A stretch of DNA of 39,806 nt from Candidatus Limnocylindrus primus. GTDB lineage: Bacteria > Chloroflexota > Limnocylindria > Limnocylindrales > Limnocylindraceae. Made by a program: the position numbers and the translations under genes. Shown here piece by piece: positions 38,194-39,806 of the stretch; within the stretch, counting starts at the first letter, position 1, and every line of letters starts with the position of its first letter. The stretch is taken from the NCBI GenBank assembly GCA_003670475.1, contig QWRJ01000001.1, positions 1 to 39,806 of the forward strand. The letters run 5' to 3'. The notes under the pieces were generated by a model. That model was given only the letters and a program-made list of their open reading frames with translations. It did not search any database and was not told the origin of the DNA.

Positions 38194-38201
38194 GAGGCGT
38201 G

Positions 38202-38897
38202 ATGGATGTTGAACTGAAGATCCACCGTTTCGATCCCGAGCGAGACAGCGCGCCGCACTGGGAGACGTATCGCGTTCCGGTTGAGCCGATGGATCGCGTC
38301 CTTGACGTGCTGACGCGTGCCAAGGAGCTGCTCGACGGCAGCATCACCTTCCGTCGCTCTTGCGCTCACGGTGTCTGTGGCTCCGATGCCCTCCTCATCA
38401 ACGGGCGCAATCGCTTGGCTTGCAAGGTGCGCGTGGAGCAACTCGGCAAGAGCATCAGCGTGGCGCCGCTCCCTGGCCTTCCCGTGGTGAAGGACCTTGT
38501 GGTGGATATGGATGAGTTCTTCGGCAAGTACCGATCCGTGCTTCCGTTCCTGATCGCCGATGAGCCAGAGGGGACAGGGGAGCGCTTGCAATCGCAGCAG
38601 CAGCGCGATGTCTATGACGACACCACAAAGTGCATCCTCTGCGCGGCGTGCACGAGCTCCTGCCCAAGCTTCTGGGCCCAGCCCGAATATGTTGGCCCTG
38701 CGGCGATCGTCAATGCGCACCGATTTATCTTTGACTCGCGCGACCAGGGGGCAGACGAGCGCCTTGAGATCTTAAGCAACGAAGACGGAGTTTGGCGCTG
38801 CCGCACCACCTTTAACTGCGTTGATGCCTGCCCTCGCGGAATCAACATTACAAAGGCGATCCTTGAGGTCTCTTCGGCGATCGGCTCACGCGGCTAG
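38202..38897 (+). CDS. sdhB: Succinate dehydrogenase iron-sulfur subunit
   Basis: SdhB carries electrons from SdhA through [2Fe-2S], [4Fe-4S] and [3Fe-4S] clusters to quinone. The start ATG 38202 is 4 nt after GGAGG; the GTG 38199 in the ORF track is too close to it. The 231-residue product has the [2Fe-2S] loop with Cys54, Cys59, Asp62 and Cys74 (Asp in this position is also known from E. coli), then CILCAACTSSCPSFW and CVDACPRGINITKAI. All expected ligands are present. The next gene begins 6 nt after the stop, in the same frame. Confidence 0.97.
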   Translation: MDVELKIHRFDPERDSAPHWETYRVPVEPMDRVLDVLTRAKELLDGSITFRRSCAHGVCGSDALLINGRNRLACKVRVEQLGKSISVAPLPGLPVVKDLVVDMDEFFGKYRSVLPFLIADEPEGTGERLQSQQQRDVYDDTTKCILCAACTSSCPSFWAQPEYVGPAAIVNAHRFIFDSRDQGADERLEILSNEDGVWRCRTTFNCVDACPRGINITKAILEVSSAIGSRG

Positions 38898-38903
38898 CGC
38901 GCG

Positions 38904-39806
38904 ATGCGCTCGCTGATCGGCAGGACAGACGGTGCCTGCCGCGGGAATCCTGGCCCTGCATCCATTGGCGTTGCACTCTATGACGCATCACGCAATGGGT
39001 CTGACCGACCAGATGCGCCCCCCGACGCAACCATCTCCGCCGCGATCGGGACGACGACGAACAATGTGGCGGAGTGGAAGGCGGTCATCTCGGCGATTGA
39101 ACTTGCGGCCGAGCTCGGCGCATCTGAGCTGCGACTTCTACTAGATAGCAAGCTCGTTGTTGAGCAGCTCAACGGCCGTTGGCGCGTGCGTGATGCGAAG
39201 CTTGCACCGCTCTGTGATGAGGCGCGCGCGCGACTTGAGAGTTTCACGGCGTGGAGCGCAGCACACGTCCCCCGCGAGCAGAATGGCCAAGCTGATGCGC
39301 TCGCCAATGAAGGTCTGGACCGTGCACTGCGCGGTGGGCCGGCATGGGTGGTGCGTCGACCAGATGATGTGGTGCGATCTCGCGGCGCATCAGATCGAGC
39401 AGCGGATCGCACAGCGGGCAACACTTCAGCAACGGAGGCGGATGGTGCCGCTACGCGGCTCACACTCCTCGGCACGGGAGCATCGCGTGGTGTGCCACGG
39501 GTTGGCTGCCGCTGCGAGGTCTGCCTCTCAAAGGATGCACGTAACCAGCGCCTGCGTAGTTCGCTTCTCCTGGAGTGGCGTGACCCGGCAACGAAGACCT
39601 CGTGTGCGGTGGTGATTGATCCCGGGATGGACCTGCGGGAGCAGGCGCTTCGCGTTGGACTAGAGCGTCTTGATGGCGCACTGATCACACACATTCACGT
39701 GGATCACACTGGAGGCATTGACGAGCTGCGCGCCTACACCGATGCGCAAGATGTGGTGATGGAGGTCGGCGCTGGGCCTGAGACCTGTGTTGAGCTGATG
39801 CGCCGC
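38904..39806 (+). CDS. Fusion of RNase HI and MBL-fold hydrolase (runs off window)
   Basis: This ORF is absent from the ORF track because no stop is reached; 301 codons are open to the last base. Residues 1-140 are a short bacterial RNase HI: TDGACRGNPGPASIG, NNVAEWKAVISAIELA, LLLDSKLVVEQLNG and HVPREQNGQADALANEGLD, with the catalytic Asp9, Glu57, Asp81 and Asp131 all present. Residues 141-184 are a polar, Ala/Asp/Thr-rich linker. Residues 185-301 begin a metallo-beta-lactamase fold: LTLLGTGASRGVPRVGCRCEVC, then THIHVDHTGG with His263, His265, Asp267 and His268 as the metal site. It resembles the PhnP / RNase Z-like MBL group that begins GTG-x-S-x-G-x-P. The likely function is RNA removal from RNA-DNA hybrids plus a phosphodiesterase; the second activity is unknown. 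It lies 6 nt after sdhB without a ribosome binding site. Confidence 0.88.
   Translation, partial: MRSLIGRTDGACRGNPGPASIGVALYDASRNGSDRPDAPPDATISAAIGTTTNNVAEWKAVISAIELAAELGASELRLLLDSKLVVEQLNGRWRVRDAKLAPLCDEARARLESFTAWSAAHVPREQNGQADALANEGLDRALRGGPAWVVRRPDDVVRSRGASDRAADRTAGNTSATEADGAATRLTLLGTGASRGVPRVGCRCEVCLSKDARNQRLRSSLLLEWRDPATKTSCAVVIDPGMDLREQALRVGLERLDGALITHIHVDHTGGIDELRAYTDAQDVVMEVGAGPETCVELMRR

Follow-up and report, generated by a model that had tools for sequence, protein, structure and literature searches.

A conserved fusion of RNase HI to a PhnP-like metallo-beta-lactamase-fold domain in Limnocylindria

The window, the whole stretch of 39,806 nt that was analysed (positions 1 to 39,806 of contig QWRJ01000001.1 from Candidatus Limnocylindrus primus, GenBank assembly GCA_003670475.1), has a GC content of approximately 63–66% and ends within a gene that joins an RNase HI to a metallo-beta-lactamase (MBL)-fold domain. 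The gene occupies positions 38904–39806 of the forward strand, on which all of the window features described here lie, and starts 6 nt after sdhB (38199–38897), a conserved upstream neighbour that forms part of the context and lies outside the fusion. From 38904 the frame is open up to the end of the window, which includes the first 301 of 443 codons, and it runs on to contig position 40235. Extension of the sequence along the source contig (109,850 bp) to the stop codon, at L002:10236, gave a protein of 443 aa encoded on one contig. The 903 bp given in the initial annotation thus make up about two thirds of the gene, from its start, which is a minor correction. A scaffold gap of 10 N (L002:9808–9817) is found in the MBL half, exactly where the window ends. 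The reading frame across it is considered reliable, since relatives without a gap are open at this point and keep the frame. The RNase P RNA gene, rnpB, begins about 13 nt past the stop codon of the fusion gene (contig 40248–40590).

The RNase HI domain (residues 8–137; 38925–39314) was detected using Pfam and the NCBIfam model for a bifunctional RNase H/acid phosphatase. The Pfam matches were to RVT_3 (3.5e-19) and RNase_H (5.7e-11), with scores of 69 bits for PF13456 (cut-off 21.6) and 43 bits for PF00075 (cut-off 25.8). The four catalytic residues, D9 (38928–38930), E57 (39072–39074), D81 (39144–39146) and D131 (39294–39296), are invariant across 12 fused homologues. The family profile and the DEDD residues place this half in RNase HI (COG0328/RVT_3), with cleavage of the RNA in RNA-DNA hybrids as the predicted activity, and bear out the earlier description of a complete RNase HI. 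Its nearest named relatives are from Chloroflexi metagenome-assembled genomes. One RNase HI copy per genome, plus a separate RNase HII, was found in nearly all of the genus. Genome G011 contained two RNase HI copies and is possibly a mixed bin.

The linker between the domains (39351–39455) varies in length and sequence, with 30–65 aa across the fusions, and no conserved ATG, GTG or TTG codon with a Shine-Dalgarno site was found in it. An internal start giving a separate MBL protein was rejected on this basis. The dN/dS values were 0.04–0.09 for the RNase H domain, 0.06–0.14 for the MBL domain and 0.19–0.84 for the linker. Purifying selection acts on both domains and the linker is loose.

The complete MBL domain spans residues ~185–443, with Pfam and NCBIfam matches over about 185–438, and its N-terminal part lies in the window (39453–39806). 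Residues 236–411 matched Lactamase_B_2 (5.4e-27; PF12706, 95 bits, cut-off 27), and the metal-ligand motifs HIHVDH, VHG, TDV, PHPTH and THLDH are all present. The N-terminal GxGxSxGxP...CxCxxC signature, which corresponds to the third metal site in PhnP, was found as GTGASRGVPRVGCRCEVC. The cysteines of C202xC204xxC207 (39507–39524) are invariant in the same homologues and probably form a structural zinc site, a role that we take from PhnP. The metal-binding motif H263xH265xD267H268 (39690–39707) is intact, and both this motif and the PhnP-like start had been recognized in the initial annotation. Across the 12 fused homologues, H268 is replaced by alanine in the sister-family genera and the other catalytic and motif residues listed are invariant. 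The MBL domains of L017–L021, from genera g2 and g4, have the form HxHxDA and have lost one metal-ligand histidine; the own genus (g1) keeps HxHxDH, as does every stand-alone MBL homologue examined. Judging from this substitution, the MBL activity may differ between lineages.

The closest sequence relatives of the MBL half are uncharacterised COG1235-type proteins (6b9v and 3py5), followed by PhnP; among solved structures the best match was 6b9v (255 bits), and PhnP (3g1p) scored 71 bits. The curated cut-offs were not reached for PhnP proper (TIGR03307, 75.7 bits against 272) or for the GPMC-system MBL (NF038231, 218 bits against 360). The RNase Z model gave only a partial match of 20 bits, far below its cut-off of 293, and Pfam and NCBIfam searches detected no beta-CASP or RMMBL domain in the MBL half, ruling out an RNase J or RNase Z. 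The C-P lyase protein PhnJ was absent from all 19 genomes of the genus, with the E. coli control positive, and a role for the MBL in the C-P lyase pathway is therefore unlikely. The domain is acidic to neutral (net charge -6 to 0), and the idea of a basic nucleic-acid grip was rejected for this reason. From what is known of the family, the MBL half is likely to be a phosphodiesterase-type hydrolase.

The same uninterrupted frame was found in 22 genomes from three genera (g1, g2 and g4). When a fusion profile was run over the 126 genomes of the order, the full fusion was present in 13 own-genus genomes, five of six g2 genomes and all four g4 genomes, and in one further own-genus genome it was broken at contig ends. 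Five own-genus genomes lack the fusion. This most likely reflects missing data, as these genomes are 60–82% complete and contain no significant RNase H match at all. The other genera of family f2 with a profile match have no MBL of this type. In the class, this MBL type was found in 23 of 177 genomes, always fused, and no stand-alone copy was detected in any of the 177. In a phylum-wide sample of 400 Chloroflexota genomes, the MBL was common in other families as a stand-alone gene of ~260 aa with the RNase HI encoded separately, and the fusion was limited to g1, g2 and g4. None of the best 80 RNase H relatives in GTDB had an MBL of this type in the locus, and a search of phages and plasmids recovered no full-length match. 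The bacteria carrying the fusion are Chloroflexota of freshwater and soil. The own genus, the only one of its family within the order, has reduced genomes of 0.8–1.2 Mb, and the adjoining family includes many genera with genomes mostly of 2–4 Mb. The class Limnocylindria has been described as including the single-genus family Limnocylindraceae (Limnocylindrus; median 1.3 Mb, 63% GC) and a sister family, CSP1-4 (PMC13212565).

The gene order sdhB-rnhA-rnpB is conserved throughout the class, and the adjacency of rnpB and rnhA is older than the fusion. Genes for META-domain lipoproteins (L165, L166 and L168) and a MurT/GatD pair (L181), all assigned by eye from sequence, lie unfused between rnhA and rnpB. 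In L206 (2958–3863) a SnoaL_2 domain (2.7e-14) is joined in frame to RNase HI, and in L182 (2411–4162) a SAM-dependent methyltransferase (Methyltransf_25, 1.5e-17) is joined in the same way. In genus g18 (L178:2393–4444, L204:2749–4167 and L205:2986–4671), RNase HI is in frame with a rubredoxin-like zinc ribbon and a divergent MBL that includes the motif SHPHFY. Pfam support for this MBL in the three genomes is weak (3e-4 at best) and under the curated cut-off, and the protein seems to represent a second RNase HI-MBL fusion of independent origin. Hence, the slot between rnhA and rnpB repeatedly takes up genes, some of which stay separate and some of which become an in-frame extension of RNase HI. 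That sister genera carry other, unrelated domains joined at this site, or none, speaks against a dedicated pairing of functions. The partner changes among genera and RNase HI and rnpB remain constant, as expected if genes are captured by the slot, and no dedicated partnership is needed to explain the pattern.

We consider it likely, though well short of certain, that the protein consists of a housekeeping RNase HI and a PhnP-like MBL on a flexible linker, two enzymes that were joined by capture of a gene in this slot. The parts of this explanation that were observed are the single frame, the conserved architecture, the catalytic residues and the purifying selection on both domains. In an ancestor within the order, a stand-alone MBL gene would have entered the space that separates rnhA from rnpB, and the rnhA stop codon would then have been lost, making the chain continuous. 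What the physical link would provide is co-expression in fixed proportions, and not a reaction common to both domains. The fusion was probably born by chance at a site that has accepted several different partners, and the halves need not work together. Against such independence, no MBL of this type in the class has left the fusion, and the fused MBL has been retained in genomes that have halved in size, so being joined could matter.

Several other explanations were weighed. An error of assembly or binning, or a frameshift that made one gene out of two, has next to no chance of being correct. In this one genome the 10-N gap does interrupt the MBL half, but it lies downstream of the fusion joint, and gap-free genomes show the same continuous frame. 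There is no stop or conserved internal start between the domains, and the frame shared by independent genomes refutes this reading. The initial annotation had proposed a genuine fusion in one frame; with 22 one-frame genomes and purifying selection, the fusion is genuine and conserved, well beyond chance, and its presence in three genera means that the halves are not always separate genes in relatives. Whether it arose once or twice is a different matter. There is a small chance of two separate fusion events, one in the own genus and one in g2/g4, in which similar MBLs were recruited twice, and this would be compatible with slot capture. The HxHxDH and HxHxDA sites and the differing linkers point in this direction, as does the finding that g1 and g4 are not directly grouped in the unconstrained trees of RNase H and of the concatenated data. 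However, in the MBL tree the fused MBLs group together apart from stand-alone Chloroflexota MBLs (SH-aLRT 95), and trees constrained to a single clade of fused genomes were equal or better, with p-AU values of 0.66 for RNase H alone and 0.63 for RNase H plus SdhB. The simplest reading is a single capture with later retention or loss, though the trees fall short of proof.

A functional coupling of the two domains, with the MBL acting on RNase H products or ligands and channelling the removal of RNA primers or R-loops into nucleotide recycling, is unlikely but deserves consideration. Variants of this proposal include the trimming of released oligoribonucleotides and the hydrolysis of cyclic or linear dinucleotides. 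In its favour, purifying selection acts on both domains, each a phosphodiester-type hydrolase; in three genera the two are always inherited together; and the fusion adjoins rnpB, which is also an RNA-processing gene. However, RNase H products carry 5'-phosphate and 3'-OH ends, no cyclic phosphate is made and such ends are not substrates of PhnP, so that processing of the products by the MBL is chemically unsupported. The MBL also lacks the hallmarks of beta-CASP proteins and RNase Z, and its stand-alone relatives had no RNA-processing neighbours, nor any consistent context, in the loci read. In most of the order RNase HI is retained with no MBL attached, and the adjacency to rnpB predates the fusion. 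The suggestion in the initial annotation that the MBL processes RNA ends released by RNase H therefore found no support in the end chemistry, the model scores, the absence of C-P lyase or the variety of partners. A non-catalytic MBL that helps RNase HI to grip its substrate or release its product, a role suggested for CobC in Rv2228c, is a decidedly slim prospect. When isolated, the 140-aa RNase H domain of Rv2228c is reported to work more slowly than the intact protein (PMC7466739), and the fused MBL of g2/g4, unlike all of the stand-alone homologues examined, has lost a metal-ligand histidine. Against this, the charge of the MBL is ill suited to gripping nucleic acids, the long linker shows no conservation, sister genera manage without an MBL and the own genus has retained the full HxHxDH site. 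It also appears doubtful that two things hold at once, namely that the rnhA 3' end upstream of rnpB is a fusion hot spot in Limnocylindrales, at which RNase HI carries at least four unrelated partner types, and that the MBL has become coupled in three genera to give a new bifunctional class of R-loop- or primer-processing proteins. Capture of independent enzymes by the slot remains the explanation we prefer.

No published description of an RNase HI-MBL fusion was found in the open literature searched, in agreement with the initial annotation, and the MBL is, within that literature, an undescribed partner that extends the small set of cellular proteins in which RNase HI is fused to another domain. 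For annotators, it means that an abundant freshwater lineage has its sole RNase HI within a protein of two domains. The significance lies more in the recurrence of fusions at a single locus than in the proposed RNA-processing machine. Several distinct C-terminal fusions at one locus in one order amount to a natural experiment on function versus drift, a question on multidomain proteins that the mycobacterial RNase HI-CobC has already posed.

The stand-alone RNase HI of other Limnocylindrales (sdhB-rnhA-rnpB) is orthologous and has the same neighbourhood as the fusion, but stops 10–35 residues past the RNase H domain. The other C-terminal rnhA fusions of the order (g18, L206 and L182) involve the same RNase HI and the same site before rnpB, with different partners. 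Among PhnP/COG1235 MBL hydrolases (TIGR03307; NF038231 MBL_Geo_Pelo; PRK02113; 6b9v, 3py5 and 3g1p), the MBL half aligns over the full length and shares the CxCxxC, HxHxDH (own genus), PHPTH and THxxH motifs. It differs in being joined to RNase HI, in scoring below all of the curated cut-offs, in the HxHxDA form in g2/g4 and in the lack of C-P lyase in the genus. The RNase HI-CobC (alpha-ribazole/acid phosphatase) proteins of Actinomycetales (SCO2299, Rv2228c and MSMEG_4305; NF005567) start with an RNase HI of the same subtype, followed by a variable linker and an unrelated C-terminal phosphate-ester hydrolase, with purifying selection on both domains. However, their C-terminal domain is a histidine phosphatase, whereas no such domain was found in the Limnocylindria protein, where the C-terminal half is an MBL-fold metallo-hydrolase and the NF005567 model (136 bits) covers residues 4–193 only. 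The two fusions also occur in different phyla and are of independent origin. In MSMEG_4305, both domains are under purifying selection and the linker is variable, and the domains are functionally dissociated in vivo, leading the authors to favour fixation by drift (PMC7466739). The Limnocylindria fusion shows the same signature, and MSMEG_4305 is its best precedent.
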